Shown: positions 26,831 through 39,228 of the stretch, in pieces | How positions within the stretch are numbered: the stretch's first letter is position 1 | Layout of the letters: the number at the start of each line of letters is the position of its first letter | Origin: a virus | Direction: 5' to 3' (one strand) | DNA: 57,039 bases | IMG/VR virus record: IMGVR_UViG_3300037882_003134 | Coordinates: 1 to 57,039 of that record | Program-made: the position numbers and the translations under genes | Notes under the pieces: model-generated | What the model was told of the DNA's origin: nothing | What the model saw: the letters and a program-made list of their open reading frames with translations, nothing else | Databases searched by the model: none

Positions 26831-28189
26831 TTAGGACGCAGTACCTGTCTTCAGGATCGACATTGCTTCGTCATCGATCGTGTCGGAATCGAAGAACTCC
26901 GTGACGCGCAGCGCGTAGCTGTTCGTCTCGTTCAAGTTCACCGAATCGACCGTACCTTGACTCTGCAGCTCGATGCGGTAGCCCGGACGTACGCCACAGA
27001 TGTGGTAGCCGAGGTTACCGAACAGACCGAACTTCGTCTCTGCGGCAGGAGCCTGCTCCATCGAGACCACACGCTTCAATTCGAAGCCGTGGACACGCTT
27101 GTCAGACTTCAGCTCTTGGACGTTCGCCCAGTGGTAGTTGTCGTTGCCCTTGGACTTCGCGAGCACGTTGATCACCTTGCGGGGCATCCAGAAGCGAGCT
27201 TCGCCACCGATCATGCCAGAGCCCTTGATGTCCTCGTCAGGGAGGTACTGCTCATCGAGCTCGTTGATGAGATCGGCCATGTGATCGAACGTGAGGTCGG
27301 TGATCGCTGACTCACCTGCCGCCATATCCACGACGTTTGCGGTCTGGGCGAGGATATTTGCGAACACGATCGAGTCCTCCTTCTTCGCCAATTCGATCGT
27401 CGCGAAGTTGATCAGCGTCTGGACGAGCGCTGGATCGGCAGTCTCCAAGAGTTCTACCGAGAAGGGCTTGCTCAGCACGTTGATCTTCTTCGTTGTGAGA
27501 GTGAACTGCGCGAACACCGGCTGGCTCGACGTAGCGCCCGTGGCTTCTGCAGTCTGCTCTGCCGTGAAGGTGGACGTGAGCTTCGGCAGGCGAAGAATCT
27601 CGCGTTCCATCGTGATCTGCGTGCAGTACTTGCGAGCCTGCGACACACGAGCGACGTTGTCGTACAGCATCGTGCTGAAGATTTCACCGCCCAGGTAACC
27701 GCCCGTGGTATCCGTCGTGAGGCTCATGGCACGCTCTGCGCGGCCGGTCTCCTTCAGGTACTGACGTTCGGCTTCGTAGGCCTTTTCCACGCCTCCAGCT
27801 TCGCCCTTCCCTACGGAAGCGCGACTGACGGCACGGATCACCTTCGCGGCCTCGTGGAGATCGCGCTGGCGGTGCTTCTGCTGTTCATAGGCGGATTCTG
27901 CGGTTTCCTGCACCAGTGCTCGGGACTGCCCGGCGTTGAGGTTGTACTTCCGCTCGATTTCGCTGCCGACTGTCTCGGCGATCTTCTGTGCATCCTGTGA
28001 TGCACCATCGACGATCATGCGAACCTGATCGTCAGAGAGCTGTACCATCGGCTTGTCTTCGACGGCTACGCCCATGTGTTCCTGCATGTAGGATCGCAGG
28101 ATTTCAGCCTGTTCGGCCTTCTCCTTGCCCTGCATGCGATTGTGGAGGTCAGCAAGCTGCTGTTCCTCCTTTGTGGGAGTGGGACTCAT
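26831..28189 (-). CDS. HK97-fold major capsid protein
   Basis: A 452-residue protein. Residues 1-150 form a charged helical delta/scaffold domain. The capsid domain begins near TTDTTGGYLGGEIFSTMLY and shows typical elements (AEATGATSSQPVFAQFTLTTKKI, KEDSIVFANIL, GEARFWMPRKVINVL, C-terminal SYALRVTEFFDSDTID). The start overlaps the stop of the protease-AAA-scaffold gene (TAATG), as expected for a head operon. Confidence 0.9.
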   Translation of the reverse strand: MSPTPTKEEQQLADLHNRMQGKEKAEQAEILRSYMQEHMGVAVEDKPMVQLSDDQVRMIVDGASQDAQKIAETVGSEIERKYNLNAGQSRALVQETAESAYEQQKHRQRDLHEAAKVIRAVSRASVGKGEAGGVEKAYEAERQYLKETGRAERAMSLTTDTTGGYLGGEIFSTMLYDNVARVSQARKYCTQITMEREILRLPKLTSTFTAEQTAEATGATSSQPVFAQFTLTTKKINVLSKPFSVELLETADPALVQTLINFATIELAKKEDSIVFANILAQTANVVDMAAGESAITDLTFDHMADLINELDEQYLPDEDIKGSGMIGGEARFWMPRKVINVLAKSKGNDNYHWANVQELKSDKRVHGFELKRVVSMEQAPAAETKFGLFGNLGYHICGVRPGYRIELQSQGTVDSVNLNETNSYALRVTEFFDSDTIDDEAMSILKTGTAS

Positions 28190-30534
28190 TAGAGAGATTG
28201 GGAAAGAATCGTCCGCTCGAACTGTTGTGCGGCGGACTTTGCGACTTCCCCGAGATCCTTTGCAGGAACCCCGCGTCGTGAGGCTTCCACGGACGCTTCT
28301 ACACACGCCTTGCGGATGGTTTCACCCAGCCGCGGAAGCGCATCGATAGGGATTTGAACGAAGGCTTTTCGTTCGGGTGCAGGGGCTTCCTGCACCGGAG
28401 GATTTGGGGCGGGTTCGGGCTCCTCCACAACCGGCGTTTCCGGTTCCTCTGGTGTTTCTACTGGCGTTTCCGGCGTCTCGGGCTCTTCGGGCGTCTTCGC
28501 CTCTTCCTCGATTATCTCCTCCATCTGCTCGAACGCTTCCTTCTCATCGGCCGGCTGTTCGATGCCGCGAGCCTTGAAGAACTTCTCCATGGCGCGGCTG
28601 GCTACTTTGTTTACCGGCTGCTTTTGCTCGAAATACCTGCGGTACTTTTCCGATTCGGAAGGTGTGGGTGGCATGGTGCTCGCAAGTATACACCCGTTCG
28701 CATTTGTCTCATTCTCAATTTGGCGACGTGGGCGATAGTTACTTCCTTGGAGCTGAATGCTTGTGATCAGATCCTTCTGCTCTTCCACCTTCTTGACCGC
28801 TTCACGCAGTGCATCGCTGATACTGAGGCCGTCCGAATCGTGAATGTTTCGGGCGAAGCTGGCGAGTTCGTACACGTGAGCCCCGGAGTAACCCTTCGTC
28901 TTTTTCACAGCCTCCTGCACGTCCTCATCGGAAACGCCATCGATCCATTTACGCAGCATCGCAGCGCGTTTCTCGTCAGTCGGCAGATTGAAATTGAGCA
29001 CGTCATGGAAGCGACCGGGACGATCGATCAATGCTTCCGGCAAACGCTCGGGGAAGTTCGTGGTCATGATTGTGACAACCCCGGAACTCCGTGCGATGCC
29101 GTCCATTTCCGTCTTTAAGAGATCGATATTTCCAGCAACCCAGTTGTCGATGTCCTCAAAGAACAATACGGAAGGTGCAATCTCTCTCGCGAGTTCGAAA
29201 GCTTGCTCGAATCCGCCACCGCGGTAGAAGTCCCTTGTCGATACCCAAACAAAGCTGCAGTCCTGTAGTGTGTTTCGGATAATACGACCCGATAGCGTCT
29301 TGCCCGTGCCAGGAGGACCGAGCATCAGCACGCCGCGGTTCGGCGTTGATTTTCCCTTGGCGTTGAGCCGCTCAACGACCCGCGAAAGTGCCTTTGCATT
29401 CTTCTCTTCGAGGAAGCAATCGTCCCAGGTCTCGTCGGTCGTCCGAATGAATTCACCTGAAAGGGCGAACGCTTCGCCTTTCAGCGGATTCTGCTCCCTC
29501 GCGAACTTCCATGCCTCATCAACCACACGTCGATTGAATTCCTTGGCCTCCCGGTGAGTAAAGAAGTTGACCTGCAACCCTCCCCACACAGGAGTTACCG
29601 AGTAGGCGAAATTGCCTTCGCTGCTTCGGTAGAAAGCGATCCCATCAACAAGGAAGTCCTCGCTCTGCCGTGAGTTGAGTTGAATGACGTTGTGAACGGG
29701 CGGGAGTTCAGTCCCCTGCCACGTCAGGTTCCGTACTTCGGCCAGGGTGCTACCCATCAAAGCGTGTCGGAGCCCGGACAGCACTCCACCGATCCGGAAT
29801 GAGGGGATGCGGAAGGTATTCTGGAATATCTCCTTCACTTCGCAGTCGATATGCTTCGCCACCCAATCGTACTGAAGCTCTGCGGGGCTGATGGATTCAT
29901 GTGTTACGTCGAAAGCTCGGCTCAATGACCGATTCCAGCGAATCGGCTCAGATTCATCCGTAAAGCTCTCGATGCGCGAGGCAAGCTCGCGGTATGTCTC
30001 AATCTCGTCTTCCCGGCCGAGCTTTCTAGCTCGCTGCACCAGCGCGTTGCTGTTGCTTGGGATTGTGACGATCGATACTTCGAGCAGTCGTTGCTTGCGA
30101 TACACACGCACCGGCACTCTTGCGCCGGCAGCGTCTTCCTCCTCCATGTCTTCCCAATCGAGTGGTTCGAAGCCGACCGAAACGGCATTGATGAAACCGC
30201 CGCGTGCGAGCTCCCAAACGGTGTCAGCGAGTGGGAAGACTCCCTCTTCAGGGAACTCGATTGTGAGATAGGTTTGCTGGTTGTGTACACGAAGAGTGTC
30301 CGGCAAACCCTTTGCTACTGGCAGGCCATTGCTTCCCGTTCGCCCCCTGTCATCGTGAGCGAGTGGAATGACAGGATTCTTGCGGAACGTCTCAAAGTCC
30401 CAGCCGGCTTGATCGATTCTCGTTCCGTAGCTGTCGATGTCGAACGTCGAAATGATGACGGTCAGACGCCGATTCGCAATGTCGATGTCTCTTGCCTGTT
30501 CGGCCGTGGCTTGCCGGATCTCCTTTTCTGGCAT
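28189..30534 (-). CDS. Fusion: prohead protease - AAA+ ATPase - scaffold
   Basis: A 781-residue protein. Residues about 20-165 are an HK97-type (U35) prohead protease with likely catalytic H60 (PLAHDD) and S119 (AVSVGF). Residues about 200-390 are an unassigned domain. Residues about 395-600 are an AAA+ module: Walker A GPPGTGKT (407-414), Walker B LFFEDID, and RPGRF (505-509), close to FtsH/Cdc48-type ATPases. Residues 621-781 are a Pro/Glu-rich then helical scaffold-like region. Normal phage proteases are 150-250 residues without an ATPase. TTCCCCTC lies 6 nt before the ATG. Confidence 0.85.
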   Translation of the reverse strand: MPEKEIRQATAEQARDIDIANRRLTVIISTFDIDSYGTRIDQAGWDFETFRKNPVIPLAHDDRGRTGSNGLPVAKGLPDTLRVHNQQTYLTIEFPEEGVFPLADTVWELARGGFINAVSVGFEPLDWEDMEEEDAAGARVPVRVYRKQRLLEVSIVTIPSNSNALVQRARKLGREDEIETYRELASRIESFTDESEPIRWNRSLSRAFDVTHESISPAELQYDWVAKHIDCEVKEIFQNTFRIPSFRIGGVLSGLRHALMGSTLAEVRNLTWQGTELPPVHNVIQLNSRQSEDFLVDGIAFYRSSEGNFAYSVTPVWGGLQVNFFTHREAKEFNRRVVDEAWKFAREQNPLKGEAFALSGEFIRTTDETWDDCFLEEKNAKALSRVVERLNAKGKSTPNRGVLMLGPPGTGKTLSGRIIRNTLQDCSFVWVSTRDFYRGGGFEQAFELAREIAPSVLFFEDIDNWVAGNIDLLKTEMDGIARSSGVVTIMTTNFPERLPEALIDRPGRFHDVLNFNLPTDEKRAAMLRKWIDGVSDEDVQEAVKKTKGYSGAHVYELASFARNIHDSDGLSISDALREAVKKVEEQKDLITSIQLQGSNYRPRRQIENETNANGCILASTMPPTPSESEKYRRYFEQKQPVNKVASRAMEKFFKARGIEQPADEKEAFEQMEEIIEEEAKTPEEPETPETPVETPEEPETPVVEEPEPAPNPPVQEAPAPERKAFVQIPIDALPRLGETIRKACVEASVEASRRGVPAKDLGEVAKSAAQQFERTILSQSL
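28685..28690 (-). promoter_or_regulatory. Internal -10-like box (TATACT) before scaffold region
   Basis: TATACT lies 10 nt before an in-frame ATG at 28674 (residue 621 of the fusion), the exact point where the scaffold-like region begins. It may express a 161-residue scaffold separately. Confidence 0.4.
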
Positions 30535-31157
30535 TACTGGGAGGGGAAGTGGGACAGAACGCGATCGCGTTGACCGCGGAATGCACGGCGCAAGTGTATC
30601 ACGAAGTCCCGTTCGAGCGCACCATGTGCTCTGAGGAACACTCGACCGAGTTGGTGTTTTCTGTCGAAGGTAAGCCCTGCACCGACAACTGCGCATCTGC
30701 AGTTTGCTCGTTCTGACATTGGCAAAGTCGAGTCGCCGGGGAACATTCCCGAACTTCCGCCCACCATGAACGGCTGGTGAATTCCGACCACCTGCCCGTC
30801 GGCCGCAGCGTGTGAAGCCCGCTCCCGGCCATCGATCACCGTAGACCATTCTTTGTTCTGGTATCCCTCTCGCCGAAGAGTCTCTGTCGATCCGTCGTTG
30901 ATCACATCCGTCAGCTCCGTGCGAGCAATCAGCTTGTTTCGTACCTTTTCATGTTGTCCGAATAGCTTATCGATGCGCTTCGAGAGTTGCTGAATCCCCT
31001 CTCCCTGCTCGATCGCAGCGGCGAGCTCTACCTGCAGAGCCTCCTTCGTTGTGCCGATTGCGATAGCCGCGTGATCAAAAGACTTCTGCTCAAGCGCAAT
31101 TCGCACGGCTTGGGTGAAGAGATCATCTTCCGAGAACTCCCCGTCGCCCTGCATCAA
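30534..31157 (-). CDS. MuF-like minor head protein, likely made as portal fusion
   Basis: The C-terminal part matches the Mu gpF/SPP1 gp7 family: IARTELTDVINDGS, then GYQNKEW, DGRERASHAAADGQ and ERANCRCAVVG with the conserved His and Cys. The listed start (TTG 31157) cuts into the expected N-terminal helix region, and no better start exists up to the next in-frame stop. The same frame is open back to the AAATTTA heptamer in the portal gene, adding residues such as RWQAIYQPFLFRG. Minor head proteins of this family help DNA passage at the portal. Confidence 0.75.
   Translation of the reverse strand: MMQGDGEFSEDDLFTQAVRIALEQKSFDHAAIAIGTTKEALQVELAAAIEQGEGIQQLSKRIDKLFGQHEKVRNKLIARTELTDVINDGSTETLRREGYQNKEWSTVIDGRERASHAAADGQVVGIHQPFMVGGSSGMFPGDSTLPMSERANCRCAVVGAGLTFDRKHQLGRVFLRAHGALERDFVIHLRRAFRGQRDRVLSHFPSQ
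30593..30601 (-). promoter_or_regulatory. Extended -10 box TGATACACT inside MuF gene
   Basis: On the minus strand, 58 nt before the ATG of the protease-AAA-scaffold gene. Same consensus as the other late -10 boxes, with no start codon at +6. Confidence 0.4.
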
Positions 31158-31294: not shown

Positions 31295-32557
31295 CTACGC
31301 GGCTAAATTTGCCGGAGGTTCGGGAGAAGCACCGGCAGGCACTTTGTTGAAGTTCACGTATGGGATGTCGGTCACTCCGGGGAGATCCAGTGGTTCGAGT
31401 CCCATCATCTGGCGGGCTTCATCGGGCAGCAGCGAGGCGTTTTCCATCAGCGTCGCGATCGTCTGCCGTTTCTCCTCAGTGTTCTCCGGCACCGGATCGG
31501 GGAAGTTGAACCGCATGCCCTCGTGACCGGGGAACTGTGGCAGGTAGTCGTTATTCAGGGTATCCGTGATCATTTCTAATAGCGGCAGGACAGTGAACCG
31601 TTGGAACACGTAGATTGCCGCATCTGCGTTCGCCCTTGTCTGCGATTCTGTCCGGCCGAGCATTTCGAGACCGATGCGCATGTTTGCAAGGATCTCGTCG
31701 CGGTTCATCTTCTTGCTCTCGGCGTACTGCATGTCTGCGTTTGATTCCTGCACCTTCGTGAACGTAAGCCCCTTGGGAAGCATTGCTGTCTTCCCTTTCT
31801 GGCCAGAGTATTTATGCATCCATTCGGACAGAATCTTTTGTCGCTCTTCGGGAGTGAGGTTCTGCTCGGTACTCAGCACGCCGGATGGGATGGCGTTGTT
31901 CTCCATCCGATCGAGGTTCATCTGATCCGCTTTCTTGTGCGCATCGAGAGCGTACCGTGCAGACTTCACCGGCGAGTGCCCGCGGAACATATCCATTGGG
32001 TTGGGCATCTTGAAGTGAACGACATCTTCCGGTGCAAGTCGGAGGCGATGTTCGATCGTTTGGTACTCGTAGTGATCGATGCTGTTATCCGCACCGAAGT
32101 GCAATGTCATGCTGCCAGGTAACAGCGGGTGAATGATCGTCGGCGCGCCGTTTAGCTTCCGCCGGCCATCGAGCATCCAGAACGCTTCGCCGTTCAGTTC
32201 ATGGTGCAGGCCGAGCAGGTGGAAGAGCTGGCGCTGCGTGAGCGGGCTCTTGCCCGTCTTCCCAGGCATTGGGTTGTGCAGTGTTTCGAGAGACTCATGC
32301 TTCTCCACCCGATCCCAATCGTCGCCCTTCTTCTCTTCGAGGAAGAACGGAGTACGGGAGACTTCAAAGCAGATAACGTCGATACCCGCGTGGAACCACG
32401 GGTTTTCACCGTAGAATTCGAGCGAGGCTTCGGGTTGGAAGTGATGCGGCTGTCCGGCGTACCGGAACATGGCGCTCAGGTCGGTACCAACAAGACGTTC
32501 CTCCCGCCCGAGGAAAGCATCTGCTGCGTTGCGGAGGCGCGTAAGAATCGACGGCAC
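31295..32557 (-). CDS. Portal protein (HK97 family)
   Basis: A 420-residue portal: SLEFYGENPWFHAGIDVICFEVSRTPFFL, RLAPEDVVHFKMPNP, FRGHSPVKSARYAL, and the wing/crown region with AESKKMNRDEILANMRIGLEMLG. GTG 32557 is chosen because a TACACT box lies exactly 6 nt before it; the longer TTG form would start inside the promoter. The gene ends GCA AAT TTA GCC GCG TAG, which includes a -1 slippery heptamer. Confidence 0.9.
   Translation of the reverse strand: MPSILTRLRNAADAFLGREERLVGTDLSAMFRYAGQPHHFQPEASLEFYGENPWFHAGIDVICFEVSRTPFFLEEKKGDDWDRVEKHESLETLHNPMPGKTGKSPLTQRQLFHLLGLHHELNGEAFWMLDGRRKLNGAPTIIHPLLPGSMTLHFGADNSIDHYEYQTIEHRLRLAPEDVVHFKMPNPMDMFRGHSPVKSARYALDAHKKADQMNLDRMENNAIPSGVLSTEQNLTPEERQKILSEWMHKYSGQKGKTAMLPKGLTFTKVQESNADMQYAESKKMNRDEILANMRIGLEMLGRTESQTRANADAAIYVFQRFTVLPLLEMITDTLNNDYLPQFPGHEGMRFNFPDPVPENTEEKRQTIATLMENASLLPDEARQMMGLEPLDLPGVTDIPYVNFNKVPAGASPEPPANLAA
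31304..31310 (-). promoter_or_regulatory. -1 ribosomal frameshift site AAATTTA at portal end
   Basis: A AAT TTA is in the correct phase of the portal gene (AAT 31309, TTA 31306), two sense codons before the TAG. A -1 slip continues AGC CGC GTA GCA and enters the MuF frame without a stop, giving a product of about 674 residues. A 6-bp hairpin (TCCCCG / CGGGGA) lies about 40 nt downstream, too far for a classical stimulator. Confidence 0.6.
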
Positions 32558-32563
32558 GGGGAC

Positions 32564-32569
32564 AGTGTA
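32564..32569 (-). promoter_or_regulatory. Leaderless-type -10 box (TACACT)
   Basis: TACACT on the minus strand, 6 nt before the portal GTG at 32557. Confidence 0.6.
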
Positions 32570-32591
32570 CAACTATCCCCAAAGAAGCGCA

Positions 32592-33230
32592 TTAGGTTTT
32601 GGGTAGCGTCAAATATGCGTAGATGAAGCTGGCAATGACACTGGCAGCGATACCCAAAAGGAAGCCGACCAAGAGCACCTTCCACTGACCACGCAGGCTT
32701 TGCGCGTACCGAAGATCCTCGCGCATCCCTTCAAGAGTAGCGCTAAGGGTCGCAATGCCTTCGGCAAGATGCTCGTTGGTTACCTGCGCTTGCTGGGGCG
32801 TCTCCTCACGTGGAAGCCTTTGACGAATTTCGTCGGCTTCCATAACACGGATCGCCTCGCCTCGCCGAACAAACGCTCCAGCGTCCGAGATCGCAATCTC
32901 TCCCGCCACAGGCTTGAAGACAACAACACCGACTTGCTGCCCTTGGTATGTGACCGGATGAAGGCGAGTTTCTGGCATCGGGCGGATACGGCCACCAAGC
33001 TGATCGACTAGGTGCCCCAGCCGACGAACATCCGTCCCGACCACAACGTCAGGCTCCCGCACTCCAACGAGCAAGACACCACCCTGCGTATTCCCGAATG
33101 CAGAAGCGATCTTCGCAAGATCGAGGATCGTGCGCATGTTCTCTTTGAACTCGACCTGCTGCGTTTCGCCGCCAGCAATAAGCCGTGCAACGTCGTCGGG
33201 CGTCACGTTCTCAAAAAGTCGGTCGATCAA
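32592..33230 (-). CDS. AlbA_2 (Schlafen-like) protein with C-terminal membrane helix
   Basis: A 212-residue protein; TTG 33230 is chosen because AGGGGA lies 7 nt before it. Residues 10-60 carry the AlbA_2/Schlafen pattern (QQVEFKENMRT, then KIASAFGNTQGGVLLVGV). A coiled coil (about 145-180) leads to one C-terminal membrane helix (VLLVGFLLGIAASVIASFIYAYL). It sits between terminase and portal genes, where no such protein is usual. A nuclease or nucleic-acid binding role at the membrane is possible. Confidence 0.7.
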   Translation of the reverse strand: MIDRLFENVTPDDVARLIAGGETQQVEFKENMRTILDLAKIASAFGNTQGGVLLVGVREPDVVVGTDVRRLGHLVDQLGGRIRPMPETRLHPVTYQGQQVGVVVFKPVAGEIAISDAGAFVRRGEAIRVMEADEIRQRLPREETPQQAQVTNEHLAEGIATLSATLEGMREDLRYAQSLRGQWKVLLVGFLLGIAASVIASFIYAYLTLPKT

Positions 33231-33241
33231 GTTTCTGTCCC

Positions 33242-34717
33242 CTATGCAATCAGTAGTTCGCCAATATCCCCGCTCTTCGCGGCCATCAACATCAAAGCTG
33301 TCGCGTCTGGCGCGTCGTCCTTCGCACCCGGTTCGTCCGGATGGTGGACGCTCAGGTATTCGCCGTCTCCCTTGTACTCGCGCACGAGCTGCGTCATCTG
33401 CTCTTCGAACTCTGCGGCCAGCGGATGATCTGCGGGATAGCTGAACCGCAACGGATCGCCAGCATCGCGGAAGATCGCCTCTTCGAACAGCAAGTACATC
33501 TCGTTCTTGCTTTGAAGGGTGAATTTTACATGACTGGTGGTATCGACTGGAAGGCGCGTTTGGCGCTCCAGCGTTTCCATCGGCATGTCGCCCTGTCCCG
33601 TGGAGTCGCCGCGTACGCCCAGAATCCGCTGCATGTACGTGAATTCGCCCGAAGAATCTTTGCGCGGTTCGTTGAGCCAAGCCGTCAGCAGCTCGATCTG
33701 CTCCTCGTAGGCCACGCTCGGCAGCTTCAGCATGTCCACGATGTCGTTCTGATCGTTGCCCACGATGGCCCACGTCGCATCACTGACCCGTCCCCAGTCC
33801 ACACCGAGGAACAGCTTACCAGCGGGGGCAGGCGTGCTCCTGCCGCACGAAAGCAGGCGCTCGCGTGCGACGAAGTTGCCTTCCTCGATCAGATCATCCA
33901 GGTAGAAGTTGACCCGTATTTCAGGATTCTCGCGGCCTTTCTCCTTCAGCAGGCGGGCGAACGTCTTCTCGTAATCCAGGTGCTTGGCGTCCCCGGTCTC
34001 TTCGTATTTCTTTCGCCGATCCGCGATCACCGCGTCCACATCGACCACGATCGACTTGCTGTTCGGGAAATCCCCGTCACATCCGCGTTTGAAGTCGCAC
34101 GTCCGCCGCGCACCAACCCCGATCATCCACCGCACGCCGTTGGTGGACGCGAGCATCGGATCAAGCTGATCCGCCCGCTTCTGGTCATCGGCCTTGTGGG
34201 CTTCCTCGACGATGAGGACGTTGAGTGTCTTCGATTCGTTTGTCGTCGTAGGTGCGAGAGAGAAACGGTAGACCTCCGCAGAGAGTTGATCGAGCCGATA
34301 CGCGCGAACCGTGTGCGCGTTGAACTCCCGATCCTCGACCTGCCACGAGTCCCGCATGGTCCCGATCGACTTCTTGATGCGGTCTACGTCCGTCTTCGCC
34401 TGCTCGCCCTTGGGTGAGGCGATGCCGGCCATGAGCGGATCACCGACGAGTAAGCGGTAGAAGATAATCAGAAAACGCAGCAGCAGCGTGATCGTTTCCG
34501 TCTTCCCAGCTTGGCGGGAAATCTTGATGTAGATGTCGATCGGCTCGACGAAGAGCGAGTAGAGGCACCAGTACGCGATCTTCACCTGATACGCGTACAG
34601 CTCGAATCCGAACAGTTTGCAGAATCCGACAAAGGCTTTAAGCGTCCGCTTCAGCGTCGCTTTCTTTTGTGCCGGCGTCTGGTTCCGGACCGTCACTGTC
34701 GAGCAGCATACCAGCAA
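33242..34717 (-). CDS. Terminase large subunit
   Basis: A 491-residue DNA-packaging motor. Walker A-like SRQAGKTET (about 66-74), Walker B LNVLIVEEAH, and nuclease acidic residues in LGVDWGRVSD and DDAPDATALM. It would pump phage DNA into the prohead and cut it. The start is uncertain: TTG 34717 or GTG 34699, both inside the small-subunit gene (about 80 bp overlap). Confidence 0.9.
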   Translation of the reverse strand: MLVCCSTVTVRNQTPAQKKATLKRTLKAFVGFCKLFGFELYAYQVKIAYWCLYSLFVEPIDIYIKISRQAGKTETITLLLRFLIIFYRLLVGDPLMAGIASPKGEQAKTDVDRIKKSIGTMRDSWQVEDREFNAHTVRAYRLDQLSAEVYRFSLAPTTTNESKTLNVLIVEEAHKADDQKRADQLDPMLASTNGVRWMIGVGARRTCDFKRGCDGDFPNSKSIVVDVDAVIADRRKKYEETGDAKHLDYEKTFARLLKEKGRENPEIRVNFYLDDLIEEGNFVARERLLSCGRSTPAPAGKLFLGVDWGRVSDATWAIVGNDQNDIVDMLKLPSVAYEEQIELLTAWLNEPRKDSSGEFTYMQRILGVRGDSTGQGDMPMETLERQTRLPVDTTSHVKFTLQSKNEMYLLFEEAIFRDAGDPLRFSYPADHPLAAEFEEQMTQLVREYKGDGEYLSVHHPDEPGAKDDAPDATALMLMAAKSGDIGELLIA

Positions 34718-35141
34718 GTGCTGCGGCGGAATCCTTTGGAACGGTCAGCTCGCGCTCGCTCCGCTCCCGCATGCCGTGATCCGAGGAGAGCACCAGCTTT
34801 GCGATCGTGCTGTTGTACGTCCCTGCCAGGCCGTAATCGATGAGGCGGGACTTCTGTTCGTTCTTGATGAGCTCCAAAGCGTCAACAAACTCCGGGTGCG
34901 CTTCAGACCAGTTGTGCAGCGTTTGCTTCGATACGCCCAGGAATTTGGCGAAGCCTTCGATCTTCGGGAGATCGACGAGCAGGGCTCCATCCTCCTTCCT
35001 GATCGTTTTGCACTGCGCAACATACTCGGCGGCACGATCGCAGAACGCCGGGTCGTATTCGCTCGGCCTTCCACACCGGCAGCAGCCGTCTTCGTCGCCC
35101 TTTGGTTTCTGGCACTTTCCGCAGAGATTCTGATCCGTCAT
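34638..35141 (-). CDS. Terminase small subunit
   Basis: A 167-residue protein. A Cys-rich N-terminus (CGKCQKPKGDEDGCCRCG, likely zinc-binding) precedes a helix-turn-helix (IEGFAKFLGVSKQTLHNWSE) and a central oligomerisation helix (LELIKNEQKSRLIDYGLAGTYNSTIAKLVLSSDHGM), typical of small terminases. ATG 35141 lies 6 nt after a TACTGT box. Confidence 0.8.
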   Translation of the reverse strand: MTDQNLCGKCQKPKGDEDGCCRCGRPSEYDPAFCDRAAEYVAQCKTIRKEDGALLVDLPKIEGFAKFLGVSKQTLHNWSEAHPEFVDALELIKNEQKSRLIDYGLAGTYNSTIAKLVLSSDHGMRERSERELTVPKDSAAALAGMLLDSDGPEPDAGTKESDAEADA

Positions 35142-35413
35142 GCCGACACAGTAACACATTTCACGGGAACCTGATTCAAGTACGTCCCCACTCCGTGAGT
35201 GTTCCAAGCCCAGCGGTTGTATGCGATTGCCGCTTCCCACTGGGTTGCGAAGTACCCGAGGAGAATCTGTTGACCATGCCGGCGAGCATAGGCCTTCCAC
35301 GGCTTTTGCAGCCCTGCCAGGTTCTTCATGAAGTAGACGCCCTTGAGCTTCGCCTGATTCTTCGGGGGATGCTTGTGCTTGTGCCGATGGTTCCAAACAT
35401 TCGAGCTACGCAT
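35138..35413 (-). CDS. AP2-domain DNA-binding protein
   Basis: A 91-residue protein made almost wholly of one AP2-like domain (KGVYFMKN ... KPWKAYARRHGQQILLGYFATQWEAAIAYNRWAWNTHG). In phages this domain is mostly found with HNH homing endonucleases; here it stands alone between an unknown gene and terminase. It overlaps both neighbours by 4 to 8 bp. Confidence 0.8.
   Translation of the reverse strand: MRSSNVWNHRHKHKHPPKNQAKLKGVYFMKNLAGLQKPWKAYARRHGQQILLGYFATQWEAAIAYNRWAWNTHGVGTYLNQVPVKCVTVSA
35148..35156 (-). promoter_or_regulatory. Leaderless-type extended -10 TGTTACTGT
   Basis: Within the end of the AP2 gene on the minus strand; TACTGT is 6 nt before the small-terminase ATG. Confidence 0.55.
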
Positions 35414-37948: not shown

Positions 37949-37954
37949 ACTCTA
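37949..37954 (-). promoter_or_regulatory. Leaderless-type -10 box TAGAGT
   Basis: The TAG stop of the HNH-AP2 gene (37952-37954) is the first half of TAGAGT; 6 nt later is the GTG at 37942. Confidence 0.55.
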
Positions 37955-38608
37955 CGGCGAACCCTGATCCAAAGGAAAGTTCAAGTAGGCGAATGGTCCG
38001 TGCAGCCGACGAGCTGCTTCGTCGTAGGCTCGGGCAGCGTCTTCCTCCGTTGCAAAGTAGCCTAGATTCTTAATCCGATAGTCGCACATTATCGACGCAG
38101 CCCACGGCTTCCGTAATTCAAAGTCGCGGCGAACGAACTTCACGCCCTTGTAGCGGGATGATGTACGTGACTTATCGAATACCTGGTTTCGCTTGTTCTG
38201 AGCTCTGGTGCAAATACGGAGGTTTTCCTTTCGATTGTCCCACGGGCAACGATTTACGTGGTCAGTTTCAAATCCAAGCGGAGTGTCCATCACCACTCGA
38301 TGCATGAATATCATTCGATCCTCTGGCTTGCAGACCACGTGCCCAGAATGAGCGAAGTACCAATTGAACTGAATCAATCGATCGTAATCGTCACGGTCAA
38401 CGATTGTGTATCCGTTCGGAGCAACCGGGATGTAGCACACACTTCGAACAGGCGGATGAGCGCGAACAAACAAGTCGCGATAGTTGTAGACGCATCCTGT
38501 CTTCGCCTTCCGCTTCGAATGCATGCCACATAGACCGCTCGTCATCGGCAGTCGCGGACATCCTTTCACACGGCAACGCCTGCGGTGTACGGATGCTGCA
38601 GAGCCCAT
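37952..38608 (-). CDS. HNH homing endonuclease with AP2 domain
   Basis: A 218-residue protein: N-terminal Cys/His cluster ([19 protein letters not shown]), an HNH core ([26 protein letters not shown]) and a C-terminal AP2 domain ([11 protein letters not shown] ... [21 protein letters not shown]). This is the usual architecture of phage homing endonucleases. ATG 38608 overlaps the stop of the replication gene. Confidence 0.85.
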
Positions 38609-39228
38609 CAGCGCAATGTCTTGTGATAGTGGATGCACCGTGAGAAGAACTGGCTAGGTGATTCGATGCCCACACCGCGTTTCCAATCCGACCAAGCTTT
38701 GCGGATCGCCCTCGTATCGTTGTTCACTTCCCGCATGAGCTTCTGTAGGTAGGCGCGTGGATTCTCTATCTGCTGTTTGCCGAGGAACGTTACCAACTCA
38801 TTTTCAAACCCGCCGTCGTTTGTTTCTTTCTTTTCTTTCTTCTCTTTTACTTTCATTGTCTGCGGTACCTGCTGCGGTACCTGCTGCGAAGGCCGCTGCG
38901 GTACACCCTGATACTTGGCATAGTTGACCACAAAAAGCCGCTGCGGTACCTGCTGCGATTGGTGCTGCACTAGCCGCTGCACTTGACCACTCTTCTCCCA
39001 GTGTTCTAACCAACGATGGACGGTGCCACGATTCTGCCGCCAACGCTTCGCGAGGAAAGTTTCACTGGCGATTACTTCACCGCGTCGGATCAGCTTCCCT
39101 GCCGTATCCGTGTAGTCGTCCCATGCGACGAGCGTGAGTAGATCAATCCATGCGAGAGATCGGAGCGGGTGCTTCCACTCGTCCTCCGTGATGCCCTTGC
39201 GGTGAAGGAGGATGTAGCCGTTACGCAT
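38608..39228 (-). CDS. O-like replication initiation protein
   Basis: A 206-residue protein. The N-terminal half has a winged helix-turn-helix ([27 protein letters not shown]) as in phage replication initiators and DnaD-like proteins. A middle linker repeats QQVPQ and is followed by a Lys-rich stretch ([10 protein letters not shown]). The C-terminal part ([18 protein letters not shown]) resembles DnaD/O C-terminal domains. The linker DNA carries repeated CTGCGGTAC boxes beside a polypurine tract, as in the lambda O gene. Confidence 0.65.
38817..38965. other. Candidate replication origin inside the initiator gene
   Basis: Four copies of CTGCGGTAC lie at 38860-38868, 38872-38880, 38896-38904 and 38941-38949, with weaker CTGCTGCG and CCGCTGCAC variants between and after them. 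They are flanked on one side by a 40-bp polypyrimidine/polypurine tract at 38819-38858. The layout copies the lambda origin, where iterons and an AT-rich tract lie inside gene O. Simple protein-level repetition is the alternative. Confidence 0.5.

Follow-up and report, generated by a model that had tools for sequence, protein, structure and literature searches.

Prohead proteases fused to a Bcs1/YjoB-type AAA+ module, found in uncultured tailed phages, are a form undescribed in the literature searched, which covered few subscription journals and yielded no description of a protease–AAA fusion. One of them is encoded in the window, a virus contig of 57 kb (57,039 nucleotides), by a single minus-strand ORF (30534–28189) of 781 aa plus stop. 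The protease and AAA parts are inherited jointly across a wide family, and there is about an even chance that the product of the window gene is a head-maturation protease powered by ATP; the fusion suggests that these phages spend ATP maturing their heads. HK97-type head maturation serves as the textbook example of a process that drives itself, in which cleavage frees stored energy and the shell expands, and we know of no standard HK97-type capsid that spends ATP on it. If the proposed activity is true, some phages, making up a widespread family, add ATP hydrolysis to head maturation, and a Bcs1-like protein mover is placed inside a virus-assembly pathway.

The head genes of the window follow the order small terminase, large terminase, AlbA-domain gene, portal, MuF, fusion, and capsid, with a head–tail connector farther along, and because of this order the fusion occupies the slot of the prohead protease. 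One-base TAATG overlaps join it to the MuF gene upstream and to the major capsid gene downstream. A sequence-only reading of this DNA had placed the ORF at 28189–30534; these coordinates are exact, and the strand is minus. The genes around this slot are:

33242–34717, minus strand: terminase large subunit (PHROG 2, 3e-13)
31295–32572, minus strand: portal protein (PF04860, 7e-56)
30534–31157, minus strand: MuF-like minor head protein (PF04233, 2.9e-17)
28189–30534, minus strand: protease–AAA fusion gene
26831–28189, minus strand: major capsid protein, 452 aa (PF05065, 7e-17; PHROG 10)

The N-terminal region of the capsid protein, of roughly 150 aa, appears to resemble the HK97 delta domain. 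No second copy of the protease or of the AAA part is present in the window record. A gene with a Schlafen/AlbA_2 domain (PF04326, 7.5e-14; 32592–33773, minus strand) separates the terminase and portal genes. By eye, two other minus-strand ORFs (37952–38638 and 35138–35413) look like HNH/AP2-type homing endonucleases, one of them being short and adjoining the small terminase gene.

From N to C terminus the fusion runs through an S78 prohead protease domain, a linker that varies among members, an N domain, one complete AAA+ module, and a tail:

29995–30534, minus strand: S78 prohead protease domain, residues 1–180 (PF04586, 1.7e-6; PHROG 80; H60, S119, E152)
29941–29994, minus strand: variable linker, residues 181–198 (38–307 aa in other fused members)
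29443–29940, minus strand: N domain of the AAA module, residues 199–364 (Bcs1-like helix-grip fold; no Pfam family)
28735–29442, minus strand: AAA+ core and lid, residues 365–600 (PF00004; YjoB/Bcs1 fold; model pLDDT 89.8)
29296–29319, minus strand: Walker A, GPPGTGKT, residues 406–413
29146–29169, minus strand: Walker B, VLFFEDID, residues 456–463
29011–29022, minus strand: arginine fingers, RPGR, residues 505–508
28192–28734, minus strand: C-terminal tail, residues 601–781, P/E/A-rich (a GRVxSxKN S78 tail stands here in many relatives)

The PF04586 match of the protease domain scores 28.7 bits against a curated cut-off of 21, and PHROG 80 ('head maturation protease') covers residues 1–179 (2e-19). 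H60 and S119 had already been named as catalytic, correctly so, and E152 is added here as the likely third residue of the triad; all three are invariant in 39/39 non-redundant protease/AAA pairs, the set on which conservation and co-variation were computed. With the HK97-type S78 proteases (PF04586, PHROG 80) the fusion shares the catalytic domain, the H/S/E residues, the placement between the portal/MuF and major capsid genes, which holds in the window and in relatives, and, in many relatives, the tail. Unlike them, it holds an AAA+ module of ~400 aa between the catalytic domain and the tail, a module that ordinary S78 proteases such as gp5 of Microbacterium phage BAjuniper (245 aa) do not have.

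The position of the module is seen in about sixteen relatives, where the AAA part is followed by the motif GRV(I/L)SxKN, or a close variant, and then by a helix-like stretch. The same motif stands directly after the S78 domain in the BAjuniper protease, and a 48-aa query with the tail motif matched 232 cultured phage records, the matches listed being all capsid- or head-maturation proteases. The motif tail is the ordinary S78 tail, and thus in those relatives the AAA module has the catalytic domain on one side and the protease's normal tail on the other. The tail of the window protein does not carry this motif; it has no PHROG family match and no recognisable homologue, and resembles only the tails of its closest relatives. 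It had been called scaffold-like: the P/E/A-rich stretch exists, and the scaffold label finds no PHROG match behind it. Three other fusion ORFs (L010, L011, and L023; 1386, 2046, and 1466 aa) have post-AAA tails of 641–1173 aa with cysteine-rich stretches.

The classical AAA set is complete in the fusion, comprising Walker A, Walker B (as ED), sensor 1, and the arginine fingers, with a PF00004 match at residues 402–516 (7e-18). K412, T413, E460, D461, N493, R505, and R508 are unchanged in all 39 pairs. Walker B reads FFED, where the ED (E460–D461) is the reverse of the usual DE. The complete AAA+ module claimed in the sequence-only reading therefore has its motifs, although Walker A lies at residues 406–413 rather than 407–414. 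We infer that the module assembles as a ring and hydrolyses ATP. Its pore loop 1 is variable (position 438 is mostly Y, R, K, or H) and gives no discrimination between threading and a Bcs1-like action.

Structure prediction and profile search, the checks proposed along with that reading, gave a confident AlphaFold2 model of residues 199–600 as one compact module (mean pLDDT 89.8, pTM 0.83). In comparisons with solved structures, scored by Z with a Foldseek ranking also run, the best match of the whole module is YjoB from Bacillus subtilis (7w42; Z 21.1, 349 residues, rmsd 7.6), followed by mitochondrial Bcs1 (9gsn; Z 18.7, 339 residues, rmsd 8.9). Both alignments run from module residue 1 to 387–390, i.e., through the AAA lid, and the high rmsd probably reflects a differing angle between the N and AAA domains. 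The N domain, first noted as an unassigned domain, is indeed one (residues 199–364), with a pLDDT of 91.6 when folded by itself. Taken alone, it finds several Bcs1 chains among helix-grip folds at Z 5.0–6.5, a suggestive match at most, since even the best of these chains (Z 6.0–6.5) fall inside the noise band, and no solved structure with E under 0.001. Its sequence has no match to Bcs1 and none across 50,697 phage records; the window sequence matches no Pfam or PHROG family, and elsewhere the hits are scattered and weak.

As judged from the model, the AAA module is closest to the Bcs1/YjoB type by domain layout and would be Cdc48-like in core sequence only. Like Bcs1 and YjoB, it consists of an N domain and, after it, one AAA domain; unlike them, it is fused to a protease, shares just 18–20% identity with them, has an N domain that Pfam misses, and has a core that scores higher with Cdc48/p97. 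The latter profile gives the best score for the core (E 1e-57), and the RPGR motif is also shared with Cdc48/p97, from which the phage module differs in its single AAA domain, its other N domain, and its ED in place of DE. The ATPase had been described as Cdc48/FtsH-like, a label that fits the core sequence only, because the one AAA domain, preceded by an N domain, and the fold as a whole point to YjoB/Bcs1. Membership in Cdc48/p97 was rejected, there being one AAA stretch and not two tandem AAA domains. Membership in FtsH was rejected as well: no C-terminal M41 metalloprotease domain was found, AAA and S78 being the only families to pass the Pfam cut-off, and the tail is without a PHROG match. 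The AAA+ proteases (FtsH, i-AAA, and others) likewise carry protease and AAA+ motor on a single chain; however, the phage protease is of the S78 serine type, lies N-terminal to the motor, and has capsid maturation as its proposed work.

A profile of the AAA module retrieved 63 viral loci, near-identical copies from related samples counted, which were typed with purpose-built profiles of the protease, portal, MuF, and capsid proteins. Protease and AAA share one ORF in 48 of these loci, drawn from many metagenomes and found in the protease slot of the head genes; a capsid-type ORF lies nearby downstream in 42 of the 48, and in most of the others the contig ends first. The remaining loci comprise six in which a separate protease gene adjoins the AAA gene, one (L012) with AAA, protease, and capsid in a single ORF, four distant stand-alone AAA genes, and four without a protease, three of which are contigs that begin inside the module and the last of which is L020. 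In the wider collections, four family members used as queries found no protease–AAA fusion among the 50,697 phage records, where matches were AAA-sized or smaller parts at <60% identity, and two scans of host genomes (84,980 species) found a sole fusion (L067), on a 3.4-kb contig of a Cloacimonadota MAG. The same fusion, which the first reading had suggested looking for in other phages, thus exists in metagenome loci and is lacking from those phage records.

The oddity of the fusion, and nothing more, speaks for an assembly chimera or a chance read-through of two genes, an explanation that can practically be dismissed. Relatives at 34–65% identity from other metagenomes show the same domain order as the window, so that neither chance nor a misassembled join explains the fusion, and G+C and GC3 are uniform along the ORF, with no shift at the junctions. 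The chimera, which the sequence-only reading had regarded as a danger to its proposal, is ruled out by these relatives, the fused loci, and the uniform composition, and on the even G+C and GC3 a recent insertion was rejected as well.

Joint inheritance of the two parts is seen in their distance matrices, which correlate at r = 0.46 (0 of 5000 permutations). In the module tree (midpoint root, several forks open), split and rearranged forms nest within fused clades, so that, within the family, the fusion probably came first. The second danger foreseen, an arrangement as separate genes in a different order, does occur in a few loci (L012, L024, L035, and L060), but these genes adjoin the protease gene and nest in fused clades, which favours a coupling of the parts. 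For L009, whose two ORFs overlap and whose nearest relatives L010 and L011 carry the fusion, a frameshift or a sequencing error may account for the split.

The linkers of fused relatives vary in length and content and are often acidic, so that the AAA part could be cut loose and act elsewhere. An improbable explanation built on such potentially cleavable linkers holds that the AAA part is a passenger of a polyprotein, freed by self-cleavage to target the host or DNA packaging, with its site among the head genes serving for timing only. Single AAA genes lie away from the protease–capsid pair in other phages (Gordonia phage Keelan and Pseudomonas phage KPP25), which speaks for it. A passenger would nevertheless be expected to move away, yet the separate AAA genes of the family still adjoin the protease, and protease and AAA co-vary.

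The HK97 protease co-assembles with the capsid protein and digests the delta domains and itself. An intact motor within such a protease suggests that ATP is spent on remodelling, either within the procapsid or while it is being assembled. More specifically, and at a little under even chances, a Bcs1-type ring on the prohead protease would actively remove or rearrange scaffold domains in the procapsid before DNA packaging starts. The fusion protein would enter the procapsid along with the capsid protein, as the HK97 protease does, and six or seven AAA modules would form a closed ring. ATP-driven movements of this ring could then rearrange the protein core inside the shell (the delta domains of the capsid protein, tails, and portal contacts), allowing the attached proteases to reach and cut it while pieces are moved, and the protease would probably cut its own linkers thereafter. 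The layout favours a Bcs1-like handling of folded domains over a Cdc48-like threading. Bcs1 shifts the Rieske protein in its folded state, in a concerted cycle that involves no threading (PMC11143374; PMC12219900), and by analogy the ring of the phage may displace scaffold domains while they stay folded, with no unfolding required.

The same kinship also serves a somewhat unlikely explanation, according to which the AAA ring is an assembly chaperone that works before or during procapsid assembly and is not a maturation motor. It would keep the capsid protein or the protease soluble, nucleate the shell, or set its size, the fusion ensuring its delivery and 1:1 supply until the protease frees it. 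The fold nearest YjoB and Bcs1, the handling of folded protein by the latter, the variable linker, the separate-gene forms, and the AAA part placed N-terminal to protease plus capsid in L012 would all suit a chaperone. A chaperone has no need for a protease fusion, yet most members are fused, and neither active site varies.

ATP-driven maturation is favoured by the 48/63 fusions, the invariant active sites, the correlation, the adjoining split forms, the joining of AAA to protease plus capsid in L012, the fold, the S78 tail, and the gene overlaps. Against it stand the ordinary HK97-type proteases, which do without an AAA module, the variable linker, which could let the AAA part be released, the weak match of the N domain alone to Bcs1, and the fact that a folded ring in the head must be degraded or remain there. 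The core of the first interpretation, an AAA+ motor as part of the capsid-maturation protease, therefore holds, given invariant active sites and co-varying parts, and it is the type of ATPase that changes; the ATP-driven removal or unfolding of scaffold or delta domains that it put forward is a candidate mechanism.

Some members of the family have other arrangements. The ORF of L012 (L012:2693–5998, 1102 aa) encodes the AAA module, the S78 protease, and the major capsid domain; the portal gene comes after it, so that the order is inverted. Its residues 450–1100 match the whole of PHROG 617, as in the protease–capsid fusions of that type, from which it differs by the AAA module in front. In L024 (6544–8478) and L035 (7280–9235), the protease ORF lies downstream of a separate AAA gene and combines an S78 domain with a PHROG 976 match; in the former, a second protease region, resembling Mu protein I, comes after the S78 domain. 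Finally, downstream of the fusion in L023, L025, L028, and L031 there are two capsid-type ORFs, arranged in tandem or near each other.
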